Shown: positions 4,218 through 20,595 of the stretch, one piece after another
Layout: each line of letters starts with the position of its first letter
Numbering within the stretch: the stretch's first letter is position 1
Source: Anderseniella sp. Alg231-50
GTDB taxonomy: Bacteria; Pseudomonadota; Alphaproteobacteria; Rhizobiales; Aestuariivirgaceae
DNA: 64,000 nt
Direction of reading: 5' to 3'
NCBI RefSeq assembly: GCF_900149695.1
Contig: NZ_LT703003.1
Span: forward strand, 930,001 to 994,000
The notes under the pieces: generated by a model
Seen by the model: only the letters and a program-made list of their open reading frames with translations
Told to the model about the DNA's origin: nothing
Databases searched by the model: none
Position numbers and translations under genes: made by a program

Positions 4218-5188
4218 TGGACCCGGTACTTTACGGATACATGCTCTATGGCATCTCGCTGCTCACGGTCGGCGGCATGTATGCCATTCTCACCTTGGGC
4301 CTCAACGTGCAGTGGGGCTTTACCGGCCTGTTCAATGCCGGCATTGCCGGTTTCTTCGGCATCGGCGCCTACACCGCAGCAATCCTGACGACCAATCCGC
4401 ATACAAGTCACGTAGGCGGGTTCCAGATGCCTTACGTCGTAGCCGCCATTGCCGCCATGCTGGTGGCCGGTGTCATCGCCTTCCTGGTCGGCAAGGTGTG
4501 CCTGAAACTGAGAAGCGACTATCTTGCCATCGCCACCATCGGCATTGCGGAAATCTTCCGCCTGATCGTCAACAACGAGACCTGGGCCACCAATGGCCCG
4601 CGCGGCATCTCGCAGATACCGCGGCCGTTCGAAGGCCTGCCCGAACCGATTAACCAGTTCGCCTTTCTTGGCGTTGTCCTGGTAACACTGGCAGGGGTTT
4701 ACTGGCTGATGGAAATCGCGCGCAAGTCTCCGTGGGGCCGGGTCATGACTGCCATTCGTGACAATGAGACATCAGCCAAGGCAGCCGGCAAGAACGTCGA
4801 GACATTCCGCATGGAAGGTTTTGTCATCGGCTGCATGATCATGGCCCTGGCCGGTGCGCTGATGGCTCACTACCTGAAGTTCGTGAACCCGCAGACCACG
4901 GACCCGCTATTGGCCACCTTCATCGTCTTCGTGATGCTTGTCATCGGCGGCAGCGCCAATAACAAGGGCGCCATACTCGGGGCGTTTCTTGTCTGGACGC
5001 TATGGTCGGCCTCGGAAATCGTGGCGCCGAGACTGCTGGATGCGATCGGCATGGCTGACGCCGGAATCCGCTCGGCCTATGTGCGCATCTTCCTGATTGG
5101 CCTGCTGTTGCAGATTTTCCTGCAGAAAAACCCGCAAGGCCTGCTGCCTGAAACACGCCCTTCATCGCCGGGCAAAAATGAGCCATGA
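4217..5188 (+). CDS. livM: Branched-chain amino acid ABC transporter permease LivM
   Basis: A 323-residue permease, partner of LivH. The N terminus (LTVGGMYAILTLGLNVQWG, then GLFNAGIAGFFGIGAYTAA) and the coupling helix region SPWGRVMTAIRDNETSAKAAGKN near residue 180 are typical of LivM. About ten hydrophobic stretches are visible. The ATG at 4217 overlaps the livH stop by one base, so the longer in-frame reading from 4178 is rejected. It is followed after about 60 bases by the binding protein, so the whole uptake system is in one cluster. Confidence 0.92.
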   Translation: MDPVLYGYMLYGISLLTVGGMYAILTLGLNVQWGFTGLFNAGIAGFFGIGAYTAAILTTNPHTSHVGGFQMPYVVAAIAAMLVAGVIAFLVGKVCLKLRSDYLAIATIGIAEIFRLIVNNETWATNGPRGISQIPRPFEGLPEPINQFAFLGVVLVTLAGVYWLMEIARKSPWGRVMTAIRDNETSAKAAGKNVETFRMEGFVIGCMIMALAGALMAHYLKFVNPQTTDPLLATFIVFVMLVIGGSANNKGAILGAFLVWTLWSASEIVAPRLLDAIGMADAGIRSAYVRIFLIGLLLQIFLQKNPQGLLPETRPSSPGKNEP

Positions 5189-5250
5189 TGTATACGTCTT
5201 TTTTGGAACAGCCCCGACAGGCTGTTTGTTCAGTGGAGGAGTGAGTGAAA

Positions 5251-6459
5251 ATGAAACTTGTCAAACAACTGGCTGTGACAGCCTGTGCGGCAGCAATGTT
5301 TGCAACGGCTGCGCATGCTGACAGCATCAAGGTCGGCTCGGCCGGCGGGGTAACCGGACCGATTGCCGAGCTGGTTGCCACCATCGTCAAGGGCCGCGAC
5401 CTGGCGCGTGACCAGATCAATGCCGAAGGCGGCCTTTTGAAGGGCGACAAGCTGGAAATGGTTATCGGCGACAGCGCCTGTGACCCGAAGGCCGCGGTTG
5501 ACGCCGTTGGCAAGCTTGTCAATGTCGAGCAGGTTGTCGGTATTGTCGGTCCAAGCTGCTCCGGCGCCACCAACGCATCCGTGCAGGCCGTCACCATTCC
5601 GGCAGGTGTTGCCGTGTTGTCCGATTCAGCAACCGCGCCATCGGTGACTGAACTGAAAGACAATGACACCGTGTTCCGTGTCGCCCCGTCCGATGCCTAT
5701 CAGGGCCTGGCGATCGCGCAACTGGTCAACAAGGCCGGTATCAAGAAGGTCGCCATGACCTATTCGAACGACGACTACAATGCCGGCATTGCCAAGGTGT
5801 TCGAAGAAGAGTTCAAGAAGATGGGTGGCGAGGTCACCGCCAACCAGGCCCATGAGCCCAACAAGGCGTCATACCGTTCCGAACTGCAGACACTGACCCA
5901 GGGCGGACCGGAAGCCATTGCGATCTTCGCCTATTACGGCTCAAGCGGCATCACCATCATCAAGAACAGCCTGGAAAACGGCCTGTTCGGCAAGTTCTTT
6001 GCTGCCGACGGCATGTTCGACCAGTCGGTGATTGACCAGATCGGCGCCGACAACCTGAAAGGCAATATCCAGATCACCCAGGCATCGTCCGATACCGCGG
6101 ATGCGTCCTACCAGGCGTTTGCTGAAGCCTTCAAGGCAACCGGCGCAGACCCGGCAGCTCCGTATGCCGCACACGGCTACGACGCCACATTCATGATGGC
6201 GCTGGCCATCGAGAAAGCCGGTGCTGCCGATCGCGCCAAGATCAAGGATGCGCTCCGGGCCATTTCAGACGGCAAGGGCGAAGTGGTTCGCCCCGGTGAC
6301 TGGGCAAAAGCCAAGAAGCTGATCGCCGACGGAAAGGACATCAACTATGAAGGCGCCTCCGGCAGTGCCGACTTTGATGAAAACGGCGATGTCAGCGGCG
6401 TGTTTGCTGTCAATGTCGTCGGTGATGACGGCAAATGGGCCAAGGAACTGCTGAAATAG
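5251..6459 (+). CDS. Branched-chain amino acid ABC transporter substrate-binding protein
   Basis: A 402-residue periplasmic binding protein of the type I (Leu/Ile/Val) fold. A clear Sec signal peptide is present: MKMKLVKQ, a hydrophobic core (LAVTACAAAMFATA), then cleavage after AHA near residue 24. The mature start DSIKVGSAGGVTGPIAE and the ligand-loop pattern VGPSCSGATNASV match this family. Translation from ATG 5251 is preferred because GGAGGAG lies nine bases upstream; an in-frame GTG at 5245 is too close to it. It is the last gene of the liv operon and precedes a strong terminator. It determines the substrate; whether that is a branched-chain amino acid or another amide or amino acid cannot be read from sequence. 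Confidence 0.92.
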   Translation: MKLVKQLAVTACAAAMFATAAHADSIKVGSAGGVTGPIAELVATIVKGRDLARDQINAEGGLLKGDKLEMVIGDSACDPKAAVDAVGKLVNVEQVVGIVGPSCSGATNASVQAVTIPAGVAVLSDSATAPSVTELKDNDTVFRVAPSDAYQGLAIAQLVNKAGIKKVAMTYSNDDYNAGIAKVFEEEFKKMGGEVTANQAHEPNKASYRSELQTLTQGGPEAIAIFAYYGSSGITIIKNSLENGLFGKFFAADGMFDQSVIDQIGADNLKGNIQITQASSDTADASYQAFAEAFKATGADPAAPYAAHGYDATFMMALAIEKAGAADRAKIKDALRAISDGKGEVVRPGDWAKAKKLIADGKDINYEGASGSADFDENGDVSGVFAVNVVGDDGKWAKELLK

Positions 6460-6485
6460 GCCAAGTTCTACCCAACAATCTTCTG

Positions 6486-6523
6486 AACCTGCGCAAAGCT
6501 GCTGTTTTGCGCAGGTTTTTTTG
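6486..6523 (+). terminator. Rho-independent terminator of the liv operon
   Basis: A stem AACCTGCGCAAA, a 7-base loop, then TTTTGCGCAGGTT running into a T-run. It lies 27 bases after the binding-protein stop and before pyrC, so pyrC is probably transcribed on its own. Confidence 0.9.
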
Positions 6524-6561
6524 TTATCTGAAGATGAGCCAATAACCGGAAACAGCATGCC

Positions 6562-7608
6562 ATGACCGACACCCTCACCATTCCTCGCCCCGATGACTGG
6601 CACCTGCACCTGCGTGACGGAGACATGCTTAAGGGCGTCGTGGCCCACACGGCAGAGCACTTCGCCCGGGCCATCATCATGCCCAACCTGGTGCCGCCAG
6701 TGGTAACCGGTGCTGATGCAGCAGCTTACAGGGACCGGATCCTGGCTGCCTTACCGGCCTCGATGACTTTTGAACCGCTGATGACGCTGTATCTCACCGA
6801 GGCGACCGAGGCGGATGACGTGGCCCAGGCGCATGCTTCGGGACTGGTCAAGGCGGTCAAGCTCTACCCCGCAGGCGCCACCACAAATTCACAATCGGGC
6901 GTCAGCAATTTCGATAATGTACAAGGCGTGCTTGAGCGCATGGCCGAGATCGGCCTGCCGTTGTGCGTGCATGGCGAGGTGACCGATGCGGACATCGACA
7001 TTTTCGACCGGGAGGCGGTATTCATAGACCGTGTGCTCGACCCGCTGCGCAAGCGGGTTCCGGGTCTGCGGGTCGTCATGGAACATGTAACCACCGCAGA
7101 CGCCGTGGCCTATGTTCAGACCGACACAAGCGGCAACCTGGCCGCGACCATTACCACCCACCACCTGATCATCAACCGCAACCACATTCTGGCCGGCGGC
7201 ATCCGGCCGCACTATTACTGCCTGCCGGTGGCCAAGCGCGAGAAACATCGCCTCGCCTTGCGCGCTGCGGCGTGTGCCGGTGATGAACGGTTTTTCCTTG
7301 GTACTGATTCAGCGCCGCACACGGATGCTGCAAAACTGCTGCCGTGCGGCTGTGCCGGCATTTTCACCGCGCCAAACACCATGAGCTGCCTGGCGCATGT
7401 ATTCGAGGAAGATGGCGCACTGGCCCGGCTGGAGGGCTTTGCCTCACGCAATGGTCCGGCCTTCTACAGGCTGCCGGTCAACTCCGAAGAAATGAGGCTG
7501 ACCAGGCAATCCGAACCCGTCCGCTATCCTGAACTTGTCGAGACCGGCGCCGGCAATGTCACCGTGTTCGACCCCGGTTTTGACCTGTTCTGGCGCGTCG
7601 GGCCCTGA
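6562..7608 (+). CDS. pyrC: Dihydroorotase, class II
   Basis: A 348-residue amidohydrolase that interconverts N-carbamoyl-aspartate and dihydroorotate in pyrimidine synthesis. The metal-binding HLHLRDG lies at about residues 13-19, the lysine that becomes carboxylated is in KAVKLYPAG near 105, and ligand histidines follow in CVHGEV, TTHHLI and FLGTDSAPH. The length and motif order match PyrC of the E. coli type rather than the longer PyrC/allantoinase-like form. It stands alone between the liv terminator and the convergent pobA gene, with only four bases between the two stops. Confidence 0.95.
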
Positions 7609-7612
7609 GTGC

Positions 7613-8839
<1,227 letters not shown>

Positions 8840-9005
8840 TCACACGCAAACCGCTTAGCCGGCATCTGCATTTTCAACCATGCCCCAGCCTGTTGCACCG
8901 GCGCCCGAAAGCCTATAGCACGAACCTGTTAACGCGAGAGTACAGATCTGTTTCTATCAAGCCTCGCATTTCCAACCTGTTCGCAAATAGCCTCGGATAC
9001 CCCAA

Positions 9006-10181
9006 TTGCGTCTGTTGTTCATTTCACATTGCTTTCCTCTAAAAGATGCCCCGATGAGCAAGATCGGCGGCATGCAGCGTGTCGGAATCGATCTGTTGAA
9101 ACAGCTCGAGGCACACCCGGAGGTGGATGTCGAAACCGTCATACTGCGATCTGAACGTGAAAATGACTATTTCGGATTTGTGCCGTTCCTGTTTCGCGCC
9201 TTCACGACCGCTCGTTCGATGATGAAGCGTGGCGAAGTCGATGCGGTGCTGTTCTCGGCAATGCCGTCCGCTGTTCTTGCCTCGATACTGGCGGGCACGT
9301 CACGAAACGCCCGCGTACCGCTTGCCGCCATCTCGCACGGGCATGACGTGATTGCAGATTCCGGCGCATATCAATGGCTTGTCGCAAAGGTTTTTGCCCG
9401 GCTTGACGCCATGTTGCCGGTAAGCCGGGCAACAGGACAGCAGTGCGTCCAGCGCGGTCTGCCTGCCGACCGGCTGTTCGTGACACCCAACGGCATTGAG
9501 CCGGACAGGTTTGGCGACAGCTTCCCGGGCCTCTCCACCAATCGGCAGGACCGTCGCAAAGTACTGGCGGATGCGTTTCCCGGACTTGCCGCGAAATTCG
9601 GGCCCGACGACCTGCTGCTGTGTTCCGTCGGTCGCCAGGTGAAGCGCAAGGGAAACGAATGGTTCGTTCGCAATGTGATGCCGCTGTTGAATTCCAACGT
9701 TCACCTGGTGATGGGCGGCAAGGGACCGGAGAGCGATGCCATCGGGCAGGCCATCACGGATACCGGGCTGGGCGCCCGAATCCATTCGCTCGGGCTGGTG
9801 GCGGAAGAAAAGCTGGCTAGCCTGTATTCAGGCGGTGATCTTTTCGTCATGCCCAATATTCCGGTCGACGGTGACATGGAGGGCTTTGGCGTGGTCATGC
9901 TGGAAGCCGGATTGTGCGGCATGCCGTCCATCGCCTCACGGATTGAGGGTATCGAGGATGTGATCACGGACAGCGTCAATGGCCATTGTGCAGAAGCACT
10001 TGATGCAAAGGGATTTGCCGACATCATCAATCTCTACGCAGAAGCGCCCGGATCACTGGACAAGATGTCAAAAACGGCCCGGTCCCACACCATTGCAACG
10101 TTTGCGTGGTCAACTGTGTGCGCGCAGATTGTTACGACCCTGAAGACGGTGATCCACCGTAAGAGGGAAACCGGCGAATGA
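9006..10181 (+). CDS. Glycosyltransferase family 4 (GT-B fold)
   Basis: A 391-residue GT-B enzyme. The N terminus RLLFISHCFPL, then a Gly-rich GGMQR loop, is the first beta-strand and acceptor loop of GT4 enzymes; this supports the TTG start at 9006 although no Shine-Dalgarno is visible. An ATG at 9054 would remove the first strand. The donor domain shows VTPNGIEPDRF near 160, SVGRQVKRKG near 205 and the nucleotide-sugar EX7E motif EGFGVVMLE near 298. It would transfer a sugar to a lipid, glycan or other acceptor. Its 3' end faces the CrtQ-like gene across a repeat element, so a shared pathway is only suggested by proximity. Confidence 0.85.
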   Translation: MRLLFISHCFPLKDAPMSKIGGMQRVGIDLLKQLEAHPEVDVETVILRSERENDYFGFVPFLFRAFTTARSMMKRGEVDAVLFSAMPSAVLASILAGTSRNARVPLAAISHGHDVIADSGAYQWLVAKVFARLDAMLPVSRATGQQCVQRGLPADRLFVTPNGIEPDRFGDSFPGLSTNRQDRRKVLADAFPGLAAKFGPDDLLLCSVGRQVKRKGNEWFVRNVMPLLNSNVHLVMGGKGPESDAIGQAITDTGLGARIHSLGLVAEEKLASLYSGGDLFVMPNIPVDGDMEGFGVVMLEAGLCGMPSIASRIEGIEDVITDSVNGHCAEALDAKGFADIINLYAEAPGSLDKMSKTARSHTIATFAWSTVCAQIVTTLKTVIHRKRETGE

Positions 10182-10184
10182 GGG

Positions 10185-10246
10185 TCTAGAGCAAGATGGG
10201 TTCAAGTGAACCCATGAAGTTGCTCTGTCACTTTGAAAGCGATCAG
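10185..10246 (-). repeat. Dispersed two-hairpin element, copy A (second hairpin only)
   Basis: Read on the minus strand: CTGATCGCTTTCAAAG, then AGAGCAA, ATGGGTTCA, a 2-base loop, TGAACCCAT and TTGCTCT. The outer and inner arms pair without mismatch. It matches the second half of copies B and D. It fills the gap between two convergent genes and supplies the TGA stop of the CrtQ-like gene (10243-10245). It may act as a bidirectional terminator or mRNA-stabilising hairpin. Confidence 0.8.
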
Positions 10247-11370
10247 CCGATCTCGCGGCCCCGCCAGCTTACTTTCTTGCCGGATCGCCAGCGGAAGAAC
10301 GCGACCCACTGCAGCCCTACAAGTACCGCGACGCCAAACGGATGGATGACGGCACCGAACCAGGACTGGCGAAATATGCCCGTCATCAGGAATCGCATCA
10401 CCCACGGCAGGGCTGCGGCAATGATTGCCAGCCGCATCGTGTCGCCGGTTGCACCCGCCAGCCAGGCAATGACAGCCATGACGGGCGGCAGGACATGACC
10501 GCCGAGAAGCAACGTGGTCCACACCGGCAGACCAACGGGTGTGGCCATGCCTTCATGGGCGTTCTTCATCAGGCCCGAGAAAACCTCCGGGCCGGTTTCG
10601 TACATGCGGGTGGCGGAGATATCGGTGATATCCATCAGGTCTGTGCGATGGCCGCCGGCGCGAAAATGCCGGGGCAACATGACCCCGTCATGAATGCAGT
10701 CGCGAATACGTTCGTGACCACCCACGTCACGATAGGCATCCATCTGCACCGCAATGAGCTGGCCGCACGCGGTCGCGAACATCGCGGAATTGGTAAACTT
10801 CACACCGGGAAACGGCAGATAGCCGAGCAATACGGTATGGATCAGGGGAATAAGCGTCTTTTCCCAGAAGCTGCCGGTGATCTGGCGCGGGAACCCGGAC
10901 AGAAGCTTGAGTTGCGGCCTGCGAGTGAACTCCGATGCGATCCGAAACAACGCATCGGGCTCGAGGGTCACGTCGGCATCGAGAAACACGGCGTAGGGAT
11001 TGCCGGCTTCGGTCGACAGGAAATGACAGGCATTGTTCTTGCCGAGCCAGCCTTCCGGCAAGGCACGCGTCGTAGCCAGCTTCAGGCGCGGGTCGGACTT
11101 GGCCATGTCCTTCACGATCTGTGCCGTGCGGTCGGTGGAACTGTCATCTGCAACAATGACCTCGAACTCCACACCGGTGCAGGCAAGCACCGATTGCAGC
11201 ACCGGTGTTATGCGGGCTTCTTCATTACGAGCCGGGATCAGAACAGAGAGTTTCGGCAAATCCGCTTCGGCCTGTTTTTTGATCGGCCGGTACAGCAACA
11301 GATTTATGCTGCCCAGGACCGCCGGGATCAACGCCAGCACGAAGACAACCTGCACAATGAGTTCCAGCAT
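10243..11370 (-). CDS. CrtQ-like glycosyltransferase family 2, membrane anchored
   Basis: A 375-residue GT-A enzyme. A hydrophobic N-terminal span (about 3-27) is followed by the family 2 start LSVLIPARNEEARI, the nucleotide-binding VIVADDSSTDRT and the metal-binding AVFLDADVTL. The product side has the GGHERIRDCIHDGVMLPRHF region, and three hydrophobic spans close the protein. The C terminus (VAFFRWRSGKKVSWRGREIG) resembles 4,4'-diaponeurosporenoate glycosyltransferase CrtQ, which also ends in a W-K/R-G-R motif after membrane segments. It starts six bases after the acyltransferase stop, so they share an operon with the desaturase. It probably attaches a sugar to a carotenoid or terpenoid acid; the acceptor is inferred from the neighbours. 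Confidence 0.75.
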   Translation of the reverse strand: MLELIVQVVFVLALIPAVLGSINLLLYRPIKKQAEADLPKLSVLIPARNEEARITPVLQSVLACTGVEFEVIVADDSSTDRTAQIVKDMAKSDPRLKLATTRALPEGWLGKNNACHFLSTEAGNPYAVFLDADVTLEPDALFRIASEFTRRPQLKLLSGFPRQITGSFWEKTLIPLIHTVLLGYLPFPGVKFTNSAMFATACGQLIAVQMDAYRDVGGHERIRDCIHDGVMLPRHFRAGGHRTDLMDITDISATRMYETGPEVFSGLMKNAHEGMATPVGLPVWTTLLLGGHVLPPVMAVIAWLAGATGDTMRLAIIAAALPWVMRFLMTGIFRQSWFGAVIHPFGVAVLVGLQWVAFFRWRSGKKVSWRGREIG

Positions 11371-11376
11371 AAAGCC

Positions 11377-12183
11377 TCAATCTTTCCTGACATCCGTGTG
11401 GGCGGCGGAAAATTTCTCGCCGCGCACCAATGCCTTCAGATAACGCCAGCGATCGTAGATGGGGTTTACCCCGCGCTTGCCGTCAATGAATGTAACGAAG
11501 GGTTCGGGGTCGCGCGCCATGACCGCGCGCGAAAGTTCGTCCTGCGCATCGCCAAGCTCCTGTTCGAGCCGGGCCTTCCAGGCATCCGGGGCCAGCGTTT
11601 CAGCGCTGGTGTCTATCTGATTACCGAAATTCACCAGTATCTCCGGGCGCGGTTCGTCCCAGAAGACAAACTCCATGGCAAGCGGCTGTACAATCACACC
11701 GCAATCCGCCGCCAATCGTGCAAGACCGGGCTTGAACTCGACCGGGCGTGAGCGTGGATCGGTAAACTCACCCTGGGGCGTAATCAACAAGGCCTTGCCG
11801 GGTGTCGCCAACATGCCGCGGGAGACCTGCAGGAAACGGGCTGCACCACGCGCTGAATCCTTTTCGACACCAAAGATGCCGATCTTCTTCATGAAATTGT
11901 ACTTCTTCAGCGCATCGGCATCCATCGGCCCGAATGCCAGATGTTCAGGCAGGAAGCTTTCCGCCATCAGCACCAGGACCAGCGGATCGTACCAGCCCGG
12001 ATGATTTGAGAAATAAATCACCGATCGATCGGCTGCGACCGGTGCCGGCGTTTCATTGAGGATGCGGAAACCGTTGAACTTCTTCGCCAGCATGCGCCGG
12101 ATATAGACATTGAAAAAACGGGTGACACGCGGCGAGTGCCGCTGGATCACCTCGTCTGCTGCCTTCTGGTTTCGGCTGGTCAT
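11377..12183 (-). CDS. PlsC-type 1-acyl-glycerol-phosphate (lyso) acyltransferase family protein
   Basis: A 268-residue acyltransferase of the LPLAT/PlsC superfamily. The catalytic HX4D motif is NHPGWYD near residues 58-64, with the preceding strand SVIYFSN. Other blocks are FGVEKDSARGAARFL near 108 (substrate pocket), LLITPQGEFTDPRSRP near 140 (matching the EGTRS-type block) and FKPGLARLA. Family members esterify lysophosphatidate, but in this setting, between a CrtI/CrtN-type desaturase and a CrtQ-like glycosyltransferase, acylation of a glycosyl-carotenoid is a reasonable alternative. The gene carries a long C-terminal segment with LVRGEKFSAAHTDVRKD. It is about 90 bases downstream of the desaturase. 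Confidence 0.75.
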   Translation of the reverse strand: MTSRNQKAADEVIQRHSPRVTRFFNVYIRRMLAKKFNGFRILNETPAPVAADRSVIYFSNHPGWYDPLVLVLMAESFLPEHLAFGPMDADALKKYNFMKKIGIFGVEKDSARGAARFLQVSRGMLATPGKALLITPQGEFTDPRSRPVEFKPGLARLAADCGVIVQPLAMEFVFWDEPRPEILVNFGNQIDTSAETLAPDAWKARLEQELGDAQDELSRAVMARDPEPFVTFIDGKRGVNPIYDRWRYLKALVRGEKFSAAHTDVRKD

Positions 12184-12276
12184 ACCTGCTTTATAGGATC
12201 ACGACGCCATGATGTCATCCGTCCAGGCGCCGGGACCGGTTGCTTTTGGCAAGGCGGATGGTCGCAGGAAACCGAC

Positions 12277-13767
12277 TCACACCGCAATATCCTGCGCCAG
12301 CAGGTCACTGGAAATCCGTGCCGATTCAAAGATCACCGGCAGGCCTGATCCGGGATGAGTGCCGCCACCGACCAGATACACCCGTTCGAGATCCTCATAG
12401 CGATTATGCGGCCTGAAACACAGCATCTGCGTCAGATTGTGGCTGAGATTGAAGGTGGCACCCTTGTAGATGTGCATATCCGCCTCCCAGTCATCCGGCG
12501 TCACCACTTTTTCATAGCGGATGCGATCGCGAATATCCGGGTAACCGGCCAGTTCGAGCCGGTCGAGGGTCTTTTCGCGGAATTCGGCTGCTTCCTTCTG
12601 CCAGTCGATATTGTCGGTGCGATGCGGCACCGGTACCAGCACATAGACGGTTGAATGTCCTTCAGGCGCCAGCGTGTCGTCGGTAATGGATGCATTCTGC
12701 ACGTAGAACGACGGGTCCTTGGGTATCACCTTTTTCACCTGGATCTCGTCAATGTTGCCTTCGAAATCCTCCGCCAGGACAATGGTGTGATGCGGCACAT
12801 GATCCAGCCGGCCTTCAATACCGAGATAAAGCATGAAGGTTGAACAGGAGAACTCCTGCGTCTCGATCTTGCGGTCATTCCATTTCTTGCGCATGTCATT
12901 GGGTACAAGTTTCGGCATGACGTGAGCGAAATCCGCATTGACCACCAGACCATCCAGTTCGATTGTCTCTTTGTTGGTGGTCACGGAAATTGCCTTTTTG
13001 CCGTCAAAGCCGATACTGGTGACTTCTTCTTCCAGGCGCAGTTCCACACCCATTTCCACCGCAATATCCGCCATGCGCTGCATGACGGCGTTGCAGCCGC
13101 CGACAGGGTGCCAGATGCCGTACTCATGCTCGAGGAAAGCAAGGATTGTGAACAGGGACGGACATTTGAAAGGTGACATGCCCAGGTACTTCGCCTGGAA
13201 TGAGAACGCCCTGCGTACCCGAGGGTCCTTGAAATAGCGCTCAAGATCCTTTTCGAGCGACATGTGCGGATTCAGTTTGGACAGCGCCTTTACAACATTC
13301 GGGCGCATGAAGTCGGAAAAACTCAGGAACGGGTTTTCCAGCACGCCGCGGAACACATCCAGTTTCTTGCGATTGTCTCGCATATAGCGATCCAGATTGG
13401 CCGCGTCAGACGGCGACAGTTTCGCAATCTCGGCCTTCATGGCCTCCTCACCGGACACCACGTCGAGATGGCCGCCTGCCTCATGAACCACCCGGTACAT
13501 GGGATCAACCCGCTTGATGGGTATTTCGCGCCACAGGTCATACCCGCAGTAGGTGAAGATTTCCGACAATATGCGCGGATACAGGAAGAAGGTCGGACCG
13601 ATATCAAATGTATATCCGTCCTCCTTGATGGCCCCGGTGCGCCCACCGACGCTCGCCTGACGTTCAATCAGGGTAACCTCATAGCCCTTGCGCTTGAGGA
13701 TCATGGCTGTCGCCAGGCCACCCGGCCCGGCACCGACAATAACAATTCGACGATTTGAAGCTGGCAT
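12277..13767 (-). CDS. Phytoene/diapophytoene desaturase family FAD oxidoreductase (CrtI/CrtN-type)
   Basis: A 496-residue FAD-dependent amine-oxidase/CrtI-fold protein. The dinucleotide motif VIVGAGPGGLATAMIL lies at 8-23, then EVTLIERQASVGGRTG around 30-45 and the CrtI-like TFDIGPTFFLYP. The C-terminal FAD block reads LVGGGTHPGSGLPVIFESA, the bacterial carotenoid desaturase signature. It would desaturate, saturate or oxidise a C30 or C40 polyene. It heads the operon desaturase-acyltransferase-CrtQ-like. No phytoene or squalene synthase gene is in the window, so the carbon backbone made cannot be fixed. It differs from typical CrtI in several central blocks; a retinol-saturase-like or CrtD-like role is possible. 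Confidence 0.8.
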   Translation of the reverse strand: MPASNRRIVIVGAGPGGLATAMILKRKGYEVTLIERQASVGGRTGAIKEDGYTFDIGPTFFLYPRILSEIFTYCGYDLWREIPIKRVDPMYRVVHEAGGHLDVVSGEEAMKAEIAKLSPSDAANLDRYMRDNRKKLDVFRGVLENPFLSFSDFMRPNVVKALSKLNPHMSLEKDLERYFKDPRVRRAFSFQAKYLGMSPFKCPSLFTILAFLEHEYGIWHPVGGCNAVMQRMADIAVEMGVELRLEEEVTSIGFDGKKAISVTTNKETIELDGLVVNADFAHVMPKLVPNDMRKKWNDRKIETQEFSCSTFMLYLGIEGRLDHVPHHTIVLAEDFEGNIDEIQVKKVIPKDPSFYVQNASITDDTLAPEGHSTVYVLVPVPHRTDNIDWQKEAAEFREKTLDRLELAGYPDIRDRIRYEKVVTPDDWEADMHIYKGATFNLSHNLTQMLCFRPHNRYEDLERVYLVGGGTHPGSGLPVIFESARISSDLLAQDIAV

Positions 13768-14070
13768 AGGAGAACTCTGTACCTGTGCTGTTTAAGCAAT
13801 AAATGAATTCCCGGATCACGCCCACCCCTGAACAATCCGGTTATAGAGAACGGCTGGAGCTTATTAACGCCATGCACGCAAGAATAGAACCCCCAAATCT
13901 CTACGACGAATTGCCGCTTGCAGATTATCCCCAGACTAAAGTCTTTTCGGGCCGGTTCGATCAGGTTCGGGTTTTCTTTTCACGGCAAACCGTTTACCTG
14001 TCTATTCGATATTGCGGCGGCCAGACGCGCCGTGCAAACATCGTGATCCAGCAAGGGTATCGCCAGCGCC
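13768..14070. other. Gene-free divergent intergenic region
   Basis: About 300 bases between the divergent desaturase and ABC exporter genes; promoters for both must lie here. An open frame from 13803 on the plus strand runs through it but has no ribosome binding site, unlike codon usage and overlaps the exporter start, so I do not call it. A perfect AGACT-AA-AGTCT inverted repeat lies in the middle, near 13933-13944, and could be a regulator site. Confidence 0.5.
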
Positions 14071-14997
14071 ATGTCGGCCATTTCCGTCAGTCAGCTCTGC
14101 AAGTCCTATGACGGCCGCCAGGCTGTGAATGAACTGTCATTCGAAGTTCAGAAAGGCGAGACATTTGCGCTGCTCGGCCCGAATGGAGCAGGCAAGACCA
14201 CAACCATTGAAATTCTGGAAGGCTACCGAAAGGCCGACAGCGGCAGTGTCTCCGTTCTTGGTCTGAACCCGGAAACGGAAGGCGCAGAACTGAAGCGCAG
14301 AACCGGGCTGGTGCTGCAGACAACAGCGCTGGAACCTGAACTCACCATCAAGGAAACCGTCACCGCTTTTGCCCGGCTGTACAAGGATCCGCGCGACATC
14401 GGCGCGGTGCTTGTTGATGTCAACCTGGCGCATCTGCAGGGCAACCGGGTCGGCAATCTTTCGGGTGGCCAGAAGCGGCGGCTGGAAATTGCGCTGGGTA
14501 TAGTCGGCGACCCGGAACTGGTGTTCCTGGATGAACCGACAACCGGCCTCGACCCGGAAGCACGGCGCAAGATCTGGGCACTGATCCAACGCCTCAACTC
14601 TAACGGATGCACGATCGTGCTGTCGTCACACTACATGGACGAGGTGCAGGCCCTGGCCAGCCACATGGCGATCATGGTCGATGGACAGATCGCGGCAGAA
14701 GGCCGGCCACTTGATCTGCAGAGGCAGCACTGCACGCACGCCACGATCCGGTTTGATGCAGACAACAAACTGCCGGCCGGCTTCCCGGCCAAGCTGGCCC
14801 CTGATACCGCAGTGTACAACGGCCATGCCGAACTCGTGGTGGAAGATCCCACACCTGCGCTAAGCACTCTGATGTCCTGGGCCCAGACCAGCGGATACGA
14901 TCTCAGTTCGATTTCGGTCACCAGGCAGAGTCTGGAAGATATTTACCTGCAACTGGTGTCACAGCGCCAGGCCCAGCCGCAAGGTGACACGCCATGA
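14071..14997 (+). CDS. ABC-2 type exporter, ATP-binding subunit
   Basis: A 308-residue ATPase of the CcmA/DrrA/NodI class. Walker A GPNGAGKT is at 36-43, the Q-loop in VLQTTALEPELTI near 83, LSGGQ at 130-134, Walker B LVFLDEP at 150-156 and the switch His in LSSHYMDE near 187. A C-terminal extension of about 90 residues follows, as in drug and polysaccharide exporters. Its stop overlaps the permease start by four bases (ATGA). It lies divergent from the carotenoid-type operon; whether it exports that product, a drug or a polymer is not shown by sequence. Confidence 0.88.
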   Translation: MSAISVSQLCKSYDGRQAVNELSFEVQKGETFALLGPNGAGKTTTIEILEGYRKADSGSVSVLGLNPETEGAELKRRTGLVLQTTALEPELTIKETVTAFARLYKDPRDIGAVLVDVNLAHLQGNRVGNLSGGQKRRLEIALGIVGDPELVFLDEPTTGLDPEARRKIWALIQRLNSNGCTIVLSSHYMDEVQALASHMAIMVDGQIAAEGRPLDLQRQHCTHATIRFDADNKLPAGFPAKLAPDTAVYNGHAELVVEDPTPALSTLMSWAQTSGYDLSSISVTRQSLEDIYLQLVSQRQAQPQGDTP

Positions 14998-15788
14998 TGC
15001 TGGTCCAGGAAGCGATACATCAATTGCGCCTGTTTACCAGACGCCCGGCCGCGGTGTTCTTCGTGGTCGCCATGCCCCTGGTGTTGCTGATTGTCCTGAC
15101 ACAGTTGTTCGGCAATGAGAAAATCCAGGGCCTGGGGCTTAATACGGCACAGTTTTATACGCCGGCCCTGGCGGTCTTCGGTGTTGTGATGGCCTGTTTC
15201 ACCTATCTGGCGGTATCGACGGCAACGGCGCGCGACCTCGGTATTCTGAAACGTGTACGTGGTACGCCGATGCCGCCGTGGGTATATATCTGTGCCCGGA
15301 TCATGGCAGTTTCGGTGATCGCTTTCATGTCCCTGCTACTGGTGATTGCAACCGGGGCGCTGGCCTTCGGTGTGGAAATCATCTGGGAACGGGCACCGGC
15401 GGCGGCAGTTGTGGCGGTAACCGGTGCGTTGTGCTTTGCATCGCTCGGCATGATGGTCACCGCATTGTTCCGGTCCAGCGAAACGGTTCAGGCGGCCAGC
15501 AGCGCGGCAATCATGCCGCTGGCTTTTGTATCGGACATATTCGTGCGTCCAAGCACCGAGACATCCGAATGGGTACCGCTGATCGGCAACCTGTTTCCAC
15601 TGCGGCATTTTTCCATCGCCTTCCAGCGCGCCTTTGACTACGCCTATGAGGGCAACGGGTTTGCCCTGCCGGATGCAGACGGCGTCGTCTACACAATCCT
15701 GCCGCACATGGGCGTCATGGCGTTGTGGGGCATTGGCGCGGCGATCATCGCAGCGCGGTTTTTCCGCTGGGAAGCGCGCGCGATATAG
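14994..15788 (+). CDS. ABC-2 type exporter, permease subunit
   Basis: A 264-residue membrane protein with about six hydrophobic spans (near 20-42, 57-80, 103-126, 133-157, 165-183 and 232-256). The arrangement, with a cytoplasmic N terminus and the block SSAAIMPLAFVSDIFVRPSTETSEW read in pieces near 165-190, fits the ABC-2 family that includes DrrB and NodJ. Start and stop pair tightly with the ATPase gene (ATGA overlap), so one ATPase dimer and one permease dimer probably form the transporter. The substrate is unknown. Confidence 0.88.
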   Translation: MMLVQEAIHQLRLFTRRPAAVFFVVAMPLVLLIVLTQLFGNEKIQGLGLNTAQFYTPALAVFGVVMACFTYLAVSTATARDLGILKRVRGTPMPPWVYICARIMAVSVIAFMSLLLVIATGALAFGVEIIWERAPAAAVVAVTGALCFASLGMMVTALFRSSETVQAASSAAIMPLAFVSDIFVRPSTETSEWVPLIGNLFPLRHFSIAFQRAFDYAYEGNGFALPDADGVVYTILPHMGVMALWGIGAAIIAARFFRWEARAI

Positions 15789-15816
15789 GCTTTAGACGCA
15801 TATCAGCGAGGCTGAA

Positions 15817-16299
15817 CTGAGCGAAGCACCGGACATATCCGATCCTGTTGTCAACCCGGATGGCCGCCAGTCTGCCACAGCGGCGGCTGTGCAGCGTGGC
15901 ACCGGCAGGATGCTGCTCAGCGCGGGATTTGCCAGCATTTCCGAGGTGTCCCTGGCTAATGGTCGCCGTGCCGACCTGATCGCCGTCAACGCGAAGGGGG
16001 AAATCTGGATTGTCGAAATAAAATCCTCGCCGGCGGACTATCTCTCCGACCATAAATGGCATGACTACATGGCGTATTGCGACCGGTTCTACTTCGCCAT
16101 TCCGCCGGACATGGACCGGGGGCTGGTCGACGAAGCAGCCGGGCTGATGATCGCGGACGCATGGGGCGCGGAAATCGTTCGCGAAGCGTCCGAAGCCAGA
16201 CTTTCCGGCGCCCGGCGCAAGGCAGTTACGCTGTTGCTGGCGCGCTCGGCATCCATGCGGCTGCAGTCAACAATAGATCCCAACGCCAACGGACTTTAG
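15817..16299 (+). CDS. mmcB: MmcB-family DNA repair protein, probable CTG start
   Basis: A small PD-(D/E)XK-like protein of the MmcB family, found in alphaproteobacteria and linked to mutagenic DNA damage repair. The core reads SLANGRRADLIAVNAKGEIWIVEIKSS, with D and E-x-K as probable nuclease-type residues, then DHKWHDYMAYCDRFYFAIP. The first ATG/GTG/TTG in frame is GTG 15889, but family-like sequence (RQSATAAAVQRG) continues upstream of it. The only start that would include it is CTG 15817, with GCGAGG six bases before; the frame closes at a TAG at 15793. I give the CTG start; if it is wrong the gene begins at 15889. It is convergent with regA, 30 bases away. Confidence 0.75.
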   Translation: MSEAPDISDPVVNPDGRQSATAAAVQRGTGRMLLSAGFASISEVSLANGRRADLIAVNAKGEIWIVEIKSSPADYLSDHKWHDYMAYCDRFYFAIPPDMDRGLVDEAAGLMIADAWGAEIVREASEARLSGARRKAVTLLLARSASMRLQSTIDPNANGL

Positions 16300-16329
16300 A
16301 CAATGTCCGGGCTTGCCTGACCGGCAGGT

Positions 16330-16875
16330 CTAGCGCGGGGCGCGCTTTGCGAGAATACGCTGCAGGGTCCGGCGATGCATGTTCAGGCGCCGCGCGGTCT
16401 CGGAAACATTGCGGTTACACAATTCATAAACCCGCTGGATATGCTCCCAACGCACCCGGTCGGCCGACATCGGGTTTTCCGGTAGGGCAGCACGTGCATC
16501 CGCCTGGGCCATCAGTGCACCATATACCGCATCGGCATCGGCTGGCTTGGACAGGTAGTCGGCAGCGCCGATTTTCACCGCAGACACCGCGGTTGCAATA
16601 TTGCCGTAGCCTGTGAGAACCACGGCACGAGCCTCAGGGCGGACAGTATGAAGGGCTTCAACCACATCAAGGCCGTTGCCGTCTTCAAGCCGCAAGTCGA
16701 CAACTGCGTAGGCAGGGGGATCGCGTTTCACTTCACCCATGGCTTCCGCGACAGACTGTGCCATGCGCACGTCAAAGCCGCGTGATTCCATTGCCCGGCC
16801 AAGCCGCTGCAGAAACGGACGATCATCATCCACCAGCAAAAGTGTCTTCGGTCCGTCGATTTCGTTTTCACTCAT
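16330..16875 (-). CDS. regA: Redox response regulator RegA/PrrA/ActR
   Basis: A 181-residue two-component regulator. The receiver domain has the acidic pocket VDDD at 15-18, the phosphoacceptor Asp near 60 (AVVDLRLEDGNG), Thr near 88 and Lys near 110 (YLSKPAD). The Fis-type helix-turn-helix at about 144-175 reads VSETARRLNMHRRTLQRILAKRAPR, which is nearly invariant in RegA/ActR proteins. It controls photosynthesis, respiration, CO2 and N2 fixation genes in relatives. The ATG at 16875 is chosen over the TTG just upstream. It follows regB in the same direction after 95 bases, in which a small hairpin is visible. Confidence 0.93.
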   Translation of the reverse strand: MSENEIDGPKTLLLVDDDRPFLQRLGRAMESRGFDVRMAQSVAEAMGEVKRDPPAYAVVDLRLEDGNGLDVVEALHTVRPEARAVVLTGYGNIATAVSAVKIGAADYLSKPADADAVYGALMAQADARAALPENPMSADRVRWEHIQRVYELCNRNVSETARRLNMHRRTLQRILAKRAPR

Positions 16876-16893
16876 CAATTCAATTCCCTGATA

Positions 16894-16912
16894 CTGTGAG
16901 CAACCCTCACAG
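16894..16912. promoter_or_regulatory. Hairpin just upstream of regA
   Basis: CTGTGAG, a 5-base loop, CTCACAG: a perfect 7-bp inverted repeat 18 bases before the regA start in the regB-regA gap. No T-run follows. It could be an operator, an mRNA processing site or part of an attenuating leader. Confidence 0.35.
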
Positions 16913-16970
16913 CAATATTGTGCCTATTGCGATGTGGTTCTTACAGCAATTTGGCCCAGCGTGGTAAAAA

Positions 16971-18365
16971 TCACAAGTCAGCCTGCCCGGTTTGCTCCAT
17001 CTCCACGATCTCGCGCGGCCACACAATGCGAACCACCGCTCCGGTTTCAGGCAGGGCCCGGTTTGCCAGATTGACCTGGGCTCCGGAGCGTTCCAGCAGT
17101 GTTTTGGCGATAAAGAAACCAAGTCCCATGCCGCCATGGCCTTCCCGCCTGATCCGTTCATCCTCGCCAAACCGGCTGCGGGTCGTAACATAAGGATCAC
17201 CGAGGCGATCCATGACCGCCTGGGAAAACCCTGTTCCGTCGTCCGAGATGGTCAGGCTGATCTGCTCGAGCGACCAGGAAATGCGAACCGTCACCCTGGT
17301 CTTTGCGAAATCAACAGCGTTCTCCATCAAGTTCACCAGGGCGTATTTTATGGCTGTGTTGCGCATCAGGACCGGCTCGGTCAGCGGGTTGCCGTTCCGG
17401 TCCGACTTGGGCTGCACGTCAAACAGAACGGCGACGTCAGGCGAGTTGAGCGGTTCGGCGATCTCTTCCGCAAGTGCGGTCATGCGCACGGTCTGCATCA
17501 TGGCGTCGGACTGGTTGTCACGTTGTGACAGCCGCGACAGGATTTCACGGCAGCGTTCGGACTGCGACACGAGCAGGTCAAGATCCTCGCCATGATGGCC
17601 ATCCAGCTTGAGTTCGCGTTTGAGTTCCTTGGCAACAAGGACAATGGTGGCCAGCGGCGTGCCCAGTTCATGGGCAGCGGCAGCCGCCAGTCCATCCAGT
17701 GCCGACAATTGCTGCTCATGGGCGAGGGCAACCTCGGTGGCCGCCAGCGCGTTGGCCATGTCACGGGCTTCGCTGGCGACCCGGTTTACATACAGGGTTG
17801 AAAAAATGATGCCGCAGACCAGCGCGGCCCACAGGCCGGTCTTGTACAGGCTGGGCAGCGCAAACGGCTGGTCGGGATGCCATGGCAGCGGCAGGTGAAA
17901 AACCGCGAGGAAAGTCGTAACCGCGACGGCCAGTCCGGCCAGCAGGACAGTGCGCGGCAGCGGCAAGGTAGCCGCGGAAACCGTAACCGGCACAATGAAC
18001 AGGAACGCAAACGGATTGGACAGTCCGCCTGTCAGGTACAGCAATGCGGCCAGTTGGAAAATGTCATAGGCCAGCAATAGCGACGAGTAGCGTTCGTGCA
18101 GACGCGCCGTCACAGCCCAGCTGAGTGACAAGGAGATGTTTACCCATGCCGACACGGCGATGAAGATGATGCAAAGCCAGACCGGCAAGGCAAAACCCAT
18201 GCCCAGATACACCCACAATACTGCAAATGTCTGTCCGGCAACCGCAAGCCAGCGCAGGCGGATCGAGGTGCGCAGCCGCAAGCCCTCATGGGTAAAGAAA
18301 GTGCCGACGACACGCGAGGTGGGGCCGATTGCGCCGGCCAGGACATCAGAGACCGTACTGGACAT
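16971..18365 (-). CDS. regB: Redox sensor histidine kinase RegB/PrrB/ActS
   Basis: A 464-residue membrane kinase with about six N-terminal transmembrane spans. The ubiquinone-binding heptad GGLSNPF is at 113-119. The H-box AHELGTPL places the phosphorylated His at about 232, and the redox-active Cys lies 40 residues later (SERCREIL, about 272), the same spacing as His225/Cys265 in Rhodobacter RegB. The catalytic domain has an N-box (NLMENAVDFAK) and G-boxes (DDGTGFS, GMGLGFFI). It senses quinone redox state and phosphorylates RegA. The ATG at 18365 is preferred to a TTG at 18389. It is divergent from a SCO1/SenC gene, the classical regB-senC-regA association. Confidence 0.93.
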   Translation of the reverse strand: MSSTVSDVLAGAIGPTSRVVGTFFTHEGLRLRTSIRLRWLAVAGQTFAVLWVYLGMGFALPVWLCIIFIAVSAWVNISLSLSWAVTARLHERYSSLLLAYDIFQLAALLYLTGGLSNPFAFLFIVPVTVSAATLPLPRTVLLAGLAVAVTTFLAVFHLPLPWHPDQPFALPSLYKTGLWAALVCGIIFSTLYVNRVASEARDMANALAATEVALAHEQQLSALDGLAAAAAHELGTPLATIVLVAKELKRELKLDGHHGEDLDLLVSQSERCREILSRLSQRDNQSDAMMQTVRMTALAEEIAEPLNSPDVAVLFDVQPKSDRNGNPLTEPVLMRNTAIKYALVNLMENAVDFAKTRVTVRISWSLEQISLTISDDGTGFSQAVMDRLGDPYVTTRSRFGEDERIRREGHGGMGLGFFIAKTLLERSGAQVNLANRALPETGAVVRIVWPREIVEMEQTGQADL

Positions 18366-18605
18366 GGTTTTTCGTTGCTTTCCGTTCAAGTTTGCTGCCG
18401 TCCCGGCAGGGACTGCCGGTCAGATTAGAGTATTTTCTGAAGAAACGGGCATCAGAATTGCCGGAAACGGCAGCGAAAGCAAAACGCGGGGCGCGCAAAT
18501 GCCATGATCGAAACCGCTCCCGGGCTTGAACAGCCGTGGCACACCCACAACATTGTGACCTGTTGCCGCTTTGCCATGCCGGCCTGCACGGGTATGAATG
18601 CCACC

Positions 18606-19217
18606 ATGAAAAAATCGACCGCCATCCTTGCCATTTCCTGCCTGCTTCTGGCCACGGGCATTGGCGCAAGCGCCCTCTTGTTCGCACCGGACACATCGAA
18701 GACCGGTGTGGTCAGTTCCGGAACCGCGCTGGTCGGCGGGCCGTTTGAAGCGACCAACCAGGACGGCAAGCGGGTCAGCGACAAGGACTTTCTCGGCAAG
18801 CACACGCTGTATTATTTCGGATTCACGTTCTGCCCTGATATCTGCCCGGCTGAATTGCAGGTCATCTCTGCCGCCTTAAGCGAGATCGACGGGGCCCAGG
18901 ACAAATTCAATCTGGCGTTTGTGACAATTGATCCCGCCCGGGACACGCCGGAAATCATGAAGCAGTATGTGGCCCACTTCTGGCCGGGTACCATTGGTCT
19001 GACCGGTTCAAACGAAGACATCCGGAAAATGGCTGCCGCATACCGGGTTTACTATACCAAGGCCGGCGGCGAGAACGCCGACAAGGACAGCTATCTGATG
19101 GACCATTCCAGTATCACCTACCTGATGGGCCCGGATGGCAAGTTTGTTCGCCACTTCCCGTTCGGCACCTCTGCAGGTGACATAAAGAAAGCCCTTGTAG
19201 ACATTACAAGCGGTTGA
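18606..19217 (+). CDS. SCO1/SenC/PrrC-family copper chaperone
   Basis: About 203 residues with an N-terminal membrane anchor (roughly 5-27) and a periplasmic thioredoxin-like domain. The copper-binding motif is FCPDICP (Cys 76 and 80) and the third ligand is His near 167 in LMDHSSITYLM. These proteins deliver copper to the CuA site of cytochrome c oxidase. Placement divergent from regB matches prrC/senC in Rhodobacter, where it influences RegB signalling. The start at 18606 puts the hydrophobic anchor immediately after MKKST; an ATG at 18594 and an open frame to 18504 are possible but would add a non-anchor extension. Confidence 0.9.
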   Translation: MKKSTAILAISCLLLATGIGASALLFAPDTSKTGVVSSGTALVGGPFEATNQDGKRVSDKDFLGKHTLYYFGFTFCPDICPAELQVISAALSEIDGAQDKFNLAFVTIDPARDTPEIMKQYVAHFWPGTIGLTGSNEDIRKMAAAYRVYYTKAGGENADKDSYLMDHSSITYLMGPDGKFVRHFPFGTSAGDIKKALVDITSG

Positions 19218-19298
19218 AAAGTCTCAAAATTTGATCCGGTATACTTTCGGTGTACAGCGCGGCTGAGCGTTTGCTCTCGGATACATTATAGTGCTATG

Positions 19299-19312
19299 TT
19301 GCAGCGCAGCAA
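19299..19312. promoter_or_regulatory. TGC-rich imperfect palindrome upstream of PHA depolymerase
   Basis: TTGCAGCGCAGCAA lies about 40 bases before the phaZ start. It is a palindrome apart from two bases and resembles the TGC-rich sites bound by PhaR, the PHA-responsive repressor in alphaproteobacteria. Identification is by resemblance and position only. Confidence 0.4.
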
Positions 19313-19350
19313 TATAGTTCAGGCCTGCACAGGCGCATGGTGATCCCTCG

Positions 19351-20595
19351 ATGCTTTACATGATGTATGAAATGAACCACGCCGCGATTGCCCCGCTGCG
19401 AATGGCCGCAAAATACGGCCACCATTTCTGGACCAATTCGACCAATCCGGTCGCCGACACGGAACTTGGCCGTTCATATGCGGCATCGCTTGGCATGTTC
19501 GAGCGTCTGACAAGGCGCTATGGCAAGCCGGAATTCGCCATTACATCGACGGAAGTCGAGGGCAAAAGCTGCGCGGTGCAGGAAAACTGTGTGTGGGAAA
19601 AACCGTTCTGCCGGCTGCTGCGCTTTGATCGTCAGTTTGAAACTGCCCCGTCCGACGCCAAGCAACATCAGAAAATACTGATTGTTGCGCCGATGTCCGG
19701 ACACTACGCGACCCTGCTGCGCGGCACTGTCGAGTCCATGCTGCCGCACGGCGACGTGTACATTACCGACTGGACCGATGCACGCGATGTTCCTGCCTCG
19801 CAAGGCAGTTTCGACCTGGATGATTACATCGACTATGTCATCGATATCATCCAGCACCTCGGTGAAAATGTGCATGTCATGGCGGTGTGCCAACCCACCG
19901 TCCCGGTGCTGGCAGCGATATCCCTCATGCACCAGCGCAAGGAAAAGCTGCTGCCGGCATCGATGATGCTGATGGGCGGTCCGATCGATACCCGCCGCAA
20001 TCCAACCGAGGTCAACAAGCTGGCAACCGAGCGCGGCACGGACTGGTTCAAACGGCATGTCATCGTAAGAGTGCCGTTTCCAAATGCCGGATTCATGCGC
20101 CGGGTCTATCCCGGCTTCCTGCAGTTGTCGGGTTTCATGACCATGAATATGGACCGCCATGTCGACGCCCATCGCGAGCTGTTCCGACATCTTGTTGAAG
20201 GCGATGAGGATTCGGCTGAAAAGCAGGAAGAGTTCTATGACGAGTATTTGTCCGTGATGGACCTGACGGCTGAGTTCTATCTGCAGACGGTGGACAGGGT
20301 GTTTGTAAAGCAGGCGCTGCCCAAGGGCGAGTTTACCTATCGCGATACCCTCATAGAGCCTGCCTCGATTACCGAAACCGCCCTGATGACGATTGAGGGG
20401 GAAAAAGACGATATCTCCGGTATCGGGCAATCGGAAGCAGCACACGAGCTGTGCACCGGCCTGCCGAAGAAAATGCGCGATCATCACCTGCAGGAAAAGG
20501 TCGGCCATTACGGCGTGTTCAATGGATCCCGGTTCCGGGCTCACATCGTGCCGCGTATCGTAGCGTTCATGCACAAGCACAATCACAAAGGCTGA
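19351..20595 (+). CDS. phaZ: Intracellular polyhydroxyalkanoate depolymerase
   Basis: A 414-residue alpha/beta-hydrolase of the intracellular (native granule) PHA depolymerase family. The N terminus MLYMMYEMNHAAIAPLR is the family hallmark and fixes the start. The nucleophile is a cysteine rather than serine: MAVCQPTVP with Cys at about 180, matching the Cys183 type of Cupriavidus PhaZ1. Asp and His partners lie toward the C terminus, the latter in KVGHYGVFNGSRF. It mobilises stored poly-3-hydroxybutyrate for carbon and reducing power. It is monocistronic, with a TGC-rich palindrome upstream and an 18-bp perfect palindrome downstream. Confidence 0.93.
   Translation: MLYMMYEMNHAAIAPLRMAAKYGHHFWTNSTNPVADTELGRSYAASLGMFERLTRRYGKPEFAITSTEVEGKSCAVQENCVWEKPFCRLLRFDRQFETAPSDAKQHQKILIVAPMSGHYATLLRGTVESMLPHGDVYITDWTDARDVPASQGSFDLDDYIDYVIDIIQHLGENVHVMAVCQPTVPVLAAISLMHQRKEKLLPASMMLMGGPIDTRRNPTEVNKLATERGTDWFKRHVIVRVPFPNAGFMRRVYPGFLQLSGFMTMNMDRHVDAHRELFRHLVEGDEDSAEKQEEFYDEYLSVMDLTAEFYLQTVDRVFVKQALPKGEFTYRDTLIEPASITETALMTIEGEKDDISGIGQSEAAHELCTGLPKKMRDHHLQEKVGHYGVFNGSRFRAHIVPRIVAFMHKHNHKG

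Follow-up and report, generated by a model that had tools for sequence, protein, structure and literature searches.

What does a carotenoid-type gene cassette make when its genome has no CrtP oxidase, and what does the exporter encoded beside it carry? The question is raised by Anderseniella sp. Alg231-50 (Alphaproteobacteria, Rhizobiales), in which genes for a desaturase (DES1), a PlsC-type acyltransferase and a GT2 glycosyltransferase lie divergent from an ATP-binding cassette (ABC) exporter of the ABC-2 type; the locus was analysed within a window of 64,000 nucleotides (the whole stretch, contig NZ_LT703003.1, positions 930,001 to 994,000). The cassette is predicted, with a probability that we put at about 0.62, to make and export a glycosylated and acylated acyclic C30 carotenoid derived from squalene. 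The unusual features are the absence of CrtP and an exporter that looks dedicated; a PlsC-type enzyme in a C30 carotenoid cluster is already known. The initial annotation, which proposed a staphyloxanthin-like route with a PlsC-type enzyme substituting for CrtO, was thus right in kind but wrong on what is new.

DES1 scores 532.6 bits against the crtI_fam model TIGR02734 (cut-off 238.1) but does not reach the CrtID and CrtD equivalog cut-offs. In a 58-row phylogenetic tree, all 31 DES1 proteins, including that of the window, form one group (support 100/99) on the side of Staphylococcus xylosus CrtN and a relative's crtI-type protein, and DES2, the second desaturase of related clusters, joins S. 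xylosus CrtP and CrtP-like rows (98/92). The staphylococcal and crtI/crtD branches are long, so that the exact joins are unsure; nine rows of an earlier family tree were excluded, and the grouping of DES1, DES2 and CrtP-like proteins was unchanged. The S. xylosus proteins are presumably CrtN and CrtP, as their gene order beside crtO and a synthase matches the order crtOPQMN. We classify DES1 as a predicted CrtN-type, squalene-route C30 carotenoid desaturase; its identity to DES1 of the aligned CrtP-bearing clusters is 50–62%. The carotenoid-type assignment of the initial annotation is borne out by this phylogeny, and a non-carotenoid desaturase is rejected on the grouping of DES1 with CrtN.

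The proposed glycosylation and acylation of a C30 product is also supported, the DES1-PlsC-GT2 block being homologous to blocks known to be carotenogenic. In all 13 aligned cluster homologues, the acyltransferase motifs NHxxWxD and T-x-x-G-x-F-x-D-x-R-x-R-P and the GT2 motifs DDxS[TS]D and DAD[VM] are retained. According to the accessible text of PMC10448405, Methylobacterium extorquens AM1 encodes glycosyltransferase META1p3663, lysophospholipid acyltransferase META1p3664, CrtP (3665), CrtN (3670) and HpnCDE (1815–1817); deletion and complementation showed that META1p3663 and META1p3664 are needed to finish 4-[2-O-11Z-octadecenoyl-glucopyranosyl]-4,4'-diapolycopenedioic acid, loss of the PlsC gene stopping acylation and loss of the glycosyltransferase gene stopping glycosylation. 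As far as that text goes, its authors found no CrtO homologue. The replacement of CrtO by a PlsC-type enzyme, already shown for META1p3664, is no novelty of the window (PMC10448405). Anderseniella shares with M. extorquens squalene synthesis by HpnCDE, a CrtN-type desaturase and the side-by-side acyltransferase and glycosyltransferase; it differs in the absence of CrtP, which M. extorquens has and needs for colour, the two being compared by description.

The substrate is most likely squalene from HpnCDE rather than a product of CrtM. On another contig (C2), HpnC (267.4 bits; cut-off 250.45), HpnD (289.3; 278.6) and HpnE (398.2; 283.05) all exceed their NCBIfam cut-offs, and an adjoining gene encodes squalene-hopene cyclase (727.9; 431.1). 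The genome therefore has a squalene synthase, whose absence would have told against the initial annotation; of the genes to be sought with it, hpnCDE were found and crtP was not. Three SQS_PSY genes are present, namely HpnC, HpnD and a third beside a gene reading as secF, which falls below the cut-offs of all three models that it matched, there being no CrtM model among those used. A gene that reads by eye as dxs (1-deoxyxylulose-5-phosphate synthase) lies between hpnC and hpnD (L056:8762-14091), which would tie precursor supply to squalene synthesis. A Microvirga ossetica plasmid encodes a squalene/phytoene-synthase-family protein of ~552 amino acids, twice the usual length (L061:15308-16966; similar matches in L147 and L172), possibly a fused HpnC-HpnD.

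CrtP is missing from the genome (8 contigs, 4.61 Mb in total, completeness 99.39%). Profile searches returned a single crtI-family gene above cut-off, and a DES2 query taken from genome G015 returned DES1 at 30% identity and two short weak matches but no CrtP orthologue, so no copy was found elsewhere. Likewise, a close relative of the cluster-type aldehyde dehydrogenase (ALDH) is absent from the genome: among 18 matching stretches, the closest shares 32% identity with the ALDH of L075, and the cluster ALDHs of the clade are 45–59% identical to one another. One of the general ALDHs could still act as a functional substitute.

The absence of CrtP recurs among relatives. The DES2 query found no orthologue in five further Anderseniella genomes, nor in G008 (g4), G094 and G170 (g45) or G137 (g76); orthologues with 68–88% identity to the query are present in the searched g2, g10, g14, g43 and g91 (Methylobacterium-like) genomes. 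Completeness is at least 93% for the CrtP-less genomes G000, G001, G004, G094 and G137. The same search gave extra crtI/crtD-type genes in G001, G005 and G094 (31–34%). A crtI/crtD-type pair, perhaps photosynthetic, lies on another contig in G001 and G005 (L058:8311-11258, L059:2148-5098); none is above cut-off in the genome of the window. A tree of joined DES1, PlsC and GT2 sequences from 15 clusters, built with four outgroup clusters and without G150 (PlsC cut badly), G002, G003, G005 and g10, implies three changes between the CrtP-less and CrtP-bearing states, and a single origin of the CrtP-less clusters is rejected (constrained tree, p-AU 0.0012). Because DES2 of g2 and g14 cluster together in the 58-row tree (100/99), losses are favoured over gains, and these trees suggest that a single Rhizobiales clade lost CrtP along three of its branches. 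The same core is found in four CrtP-less genera, and g76 retains the cluster ALDH though without CrtP, which suggests that an aldehyde is still made there.

The exporter ATPase scores 222.6 bits against the drrA model TIGR01188 (cut-off 312.45), and the permease matches DrrB-family models, again below their cut-offs. It thus resembles the DrrAB-type ABC-2 drug exporters but remains below cut-off for the drug-exporter models and is linked to a carotenoid cassette. We counted DrrA-like ATPases of at least 120 bits that were in or adjoining a cluster at 99 loci, after exclusion of duplicates and of stretches ending early (L044–L050, L053–L055 and L075, including G002, whose contig begins inside DES1 with the exporter side unseen, and g10, whose contig stops inside DES2). 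They are present at all 10 loci of the Rhizobiales clade, each with a permease, at 6 of 10 Methylobacterium/Microvirga-type loci and at 9 of 79 others, the last mostly in records named Planctomycetota. Such ATPases number 25 near clusters in 922 kb versus 1 far from them in 803 kb, and only two other places in the genome of the window reach 120 bits with its ATPase. Nine permease candidates next to DrrA-like ATPases were scanned, and eight match ABC-2 models.

Across 397 genomes of the order, relatives of the permease (E up to 1e-30) occur in 8 and DES1 (E up to 1e-110) in 15. Both are found in seven (G000, G063, G094, G114, G137, G150 and G170), and the eighth permease genome, G136, begins a contig of 6,935 bases with ALDH, ATPase and permease genes, the contig ending where DES1 would lie. 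The remaining eight DES1 genomes belong to g91 or g43, and in six of them an ABC ATPase of another kind is in or adjoins the cluster. In five of seven g91 genomes such a different ATPase is encoded between DES1 and DES2 (L168:6260-8751), so C30 clusters may have acquired exporters on more than one occasion. The co-occurrence of permease and cassette supports the exporter as a partner of the pathway, as initially annotated, and on gene content it looks dedicated to the cassette. We know of no exporter previously assigned to such a carotenoid glycolipid pigment, nor of a mechanism by which bulky carotenoid glycolipids are placed in the Gram-negative envelope. No such exporter turned up in the literature, searched mostly in general terms, which is a weak negative; the word "transporter" is absent from the M. 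extorquens paper (PMC10448405).

In the pathway that we propose, squalene would come from HpnCDE, a source in common with the hopanoid pathway, and its desaturation by DES1 would give a coloured C30 polyene. Oxidation of an end group would then fall to an enzyme other than CrtP, which may be DES1 or else an oxidase that is unlinked and unrelated; GT2 would add a sugar, the PlsC-type enzyme would acylate that sugar, and the ABC-2 exporter would translocate the completed amphiphile across the inner membrane or out of it. We infer the substrates, the order of the steps, the identity of the oxidase and the cargo of the exporter.

Several points weigh against this pathway. With neither CrtP nor a close cluster-type ALDH, the C30 carotenoic acid, the known acceptor, is left without an identified source. 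The crtP mutant of M. extorquens is colourless (PMC10448405, accessible text), so one desaturase may not suffice for colour. DES1 of the CrtP-less lineages shows, in the alignment, no clear common substitution indicative of a new activity. The three changes in CrtP could include gains, and five of the CrtP-less genomes (G002, G003, G005, G008 and G170) are drafts of 78–89% completeness. As to the exporter, a DrrA-like ATPase is missing, in the stretch seen, from 70 of the 79 loci that belong to neither alphaproteobacterial group and from 4 of the 10 loci of Methylobacterium/Microvirga type; the 99-locus reference set leans to the subtype of the window, the permease candidate of L170 matched no family, and the putative cargo is one that we infer rather than observe.

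Within the proposed pathway, the missing oxidation could be explained in two ways. A real possibility, though short of even odds, is that an unlinked and unrelated oxidase, for example a cytochrome P450, together with a generic ALDH has replaced CrtP. The genome has three P450 genes, all unlinked to the cassette, besides the 18 stretches matching general ALDHs. As a precedent, Planococcus faecalis has a working CrtP2 and AldH away from its cluster, but that replacement was found by its similarity to CrtP, at least in the accessible text (PMC7764019), and the Anderseniella genome has no CrtP relative. The P450 genes also give no positional hint: none of five P450 neighbours scanned is an isoprenoid gene (two matched no model), and a linked P450 as CrtP replacement is rejected. 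The other explanation, which we regard as rather unlikely, is a bifunctional DES1, both desaturase and terminal-methyl oxidase, that made CrtP dispensable and so allowed its repeated loss. The retention of PlsC, GT2 and exporter on three CrtP-less branches and the single CrtI-family gene above cut-off would fit such an enzyme; the P450 genes could carry out the oxidation instead, and no residue pattern is specific to the CrtP-less lineages. At seven DES1 alignment columns the four CrtP-less lineages agree on a residue shared by less than 1/4 of the dual clusters, but at six of these one or more of the CrtP-bearing clade members share it. Remodelling of DES1 likewise left no convincing pattern: 3 otherwise invariant columns are altered versus 2 in a control set. 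Because no common substitutions mark the CrtP-less lineages, we rank the unlinked oxidase above a bifunctional DES1.

A different reading, in our judgement clearly unlikely, is that the operon is composite: DES1 alone would make an unoxidized C30 carotene, and a different lipid, such as a hydroxylated terpenoid or another membrane lipid, would be the target of GT2, PlsC and the exporter. The missing CrtP and cluster-type ALDH, and the origin of this state on three branches, can be read that way, as can the resemblance of GT2 to HpnB (114.8 bits; cut-off 379.25) and CruG (97.8; 600), enzymes named for other terpenoids, albeit below both cut-offs. However, GT2 (about 50–53% identity) and PlsC (42–50%) are still similar to those of the CrtP-bearing sister genera, and g76 keeps the cluster ALDH, which suggests continued production of an aldehyde there. 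CruF (PF04240) is absent from the genome; CrtC was not searched for.

A decaying remnant of a C30 pathway, to which the same two missing enzymes might point, is highly improbable given cassette dN/dS values of 0.03–0.13 against 0.035–0.09 for the neighbours pyrC, pobA and regB, the same core in four CrtP-less genera on three branches, and a conserved intergenic region. Within the genus, pairwise dN/dS (three or four comparisons per gene) is about 0.03 for DES1 and the permease, 0.04–0.05 for GT2, 0.07–0.11 for PlsC, 0.07–0.13 for the ATPase and 0.09–0.12 for GT4, values by which the cassette genes of Anderseniella are judged to be under purifying selection and still functional. The 303 bases between DES1 and the exporter are 88–93% identical to those of three other genomes of the genus and without codon periodicity; in the same genome pairs, dS of DES1, PlsC and the exporter genes is 0.53–0.83. 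This is likely a shared divergent regulatory region, judging from its conservation, and in G004 it carries an insertion. An open reading frame (ORF) at 13803-14111 is rejected as a gene, having no codon periodicity and a frame that is interrupted in relatives. A leader RNA was also rejected: no Rfam family matched at the gathering score, the three matches obtained at a lax score were at chance level, and the fold z was 0.27.

Compared with known systems, the block DES1-DES2-PlsC-GT2 is carried by five named plasmids, of Azospirillum brasilense (L060), Microvirga (L061, with a methyltransferase between DES1 and DES2), Palleronia (L062), Gluconobacter (L063) and Limimaricola (L064); ALDH is found in all five stretches and squalene-synthesis genes in three. 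In A. brasilense Sp7, deletion of crtNPOQ, which we equated with the L060 block by names and order, abolished carotenoids (PMC13274349, accessible text). The window has the gene order of L060 except for DES2, whereas L060 has CrtP and ALDH and no DrrA-like ATPase of at least 120 bits in its stretch. The staphyloxanthin-type crtOPQMN cluster (S. xylosus plasmid L066) follows the same logic of a glycosylated, acylated C30 carotenoid but uses CrtM and CrtO, in contrast to HpnCDE and a PlsC-type enzyme, without CrtP, in Anderseniella. As for M. extorquens, its authors left open, in the accessible text, when the CrtP-type enzyme acts and which ALDH is involved (PMC10448405). The Anderseniella genome combines HpnCDE, a CrtN-type desaturase and adjacent PlsC and GT2 genes; because CrtP and the cluster-type ALDH are lacking, we regard the cassette not as a full member of the squalene-route C30 carotenoid clusters but as a reduced variant linked to an exporter.

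Table 1. Features of the cassette and its flanks in the window
Feature	Positions	Strand	Basis and remarks
GT4 glycosyltransferase	9006-10181	+	PF00534/PF13439; converges on GT2; accessory at most
GT2 glycosyltransferase	10243-11370	-	PF00535; putative counterpart of META1p3663 by family and position
PlsC-type acyltransferase (lysophospholipid acyltransferase family)	11377-12183	-	PF01553; putative counterpart of META1p3664 by family and position
DES1, predicted CrtN-type FAD-dependent C30 (squalene-route) carotenoid desaturase	12277-13767	-	TIGR02734 and tree
Divergent DES1/exporter intergenic region, probably non-coding and regulatory	13768-14070		Conservation without codon periodicity
ABC ATPase (DrrA-like) of the divergent exporter	14071-14997	+	PF00005; best NCBIfam model TIGR01188 drrA, below cut-off
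ABC-2 permease of the exporter	14994-15788	+	ABC2_membrane_3 / ABC2_membrane

All six ORFs of the initial annotation are present (Table 1), and their families agree with curated models: PlsC scores 41.0 bits against PF01553 (cut-off 23), GT2 77.9 against PF00535 (23.3), GT4 85.8 against PF00534 (26.4), the ATPase 101.8 against PF00005 (25) and the permease 73.9 against ABC2_membrane_3 (31.6). Gaps of 6 and 93 bases within the minus-strand trio GT2/PlsC/DES1 fit a single operon. The statement of the initial annotation that no ALDH, oxidase or synthase lies nearby agrees with the ORFs read or scanned in 5000-20000, with family searches covering part of them; the sole FAD oxygenase there (7613-8794) is 4-hydroxybenzoate 3-monooxygenase (627.2 bits; cut-off 538.7). 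A pathway role for GT4, in contrast, is not borne out. GT4 lies beside the cassette in three of four further Anderseniella genomes that reach its position (G001, G004 and G005, but not G002; the G003 contig stops short and is outside the count), and a close relative is absent from the cassette loci of the other genera compared, a distribution by which it is read as a genus-specific neighbour outside the conserved cassette. A response regulator and a sensor kinase at 16330-18389 adjoin the cassette in all four further Anderseniella genomes whose contigs reach there. They read as RegA/RegB redox regulators, and this putative RegA/RegB-like pair might control the cassette.

Taken as a whole, the proposal is that one Rhizobiales clade makes an acylated glycosyl C30 carotenoid without CrtP, having lost it three times, and that a dedicated ABC-2 exporter takes the completed glycolipid out of the inner membrane; it is tentative, and we hold it at clearly less than even odds. 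If it is true, this exporter would, as far as we know, be the first to be linked to a pigment of this kind. Since the exporter was found only with the cassette in the 397 genomes searched (the contig of G136 being cut), it would offer a one-gene test of pigment placement, and the repeated loss of CrtP would serve as a natural experiment on the enzyme that oxidizes the end of the chain.

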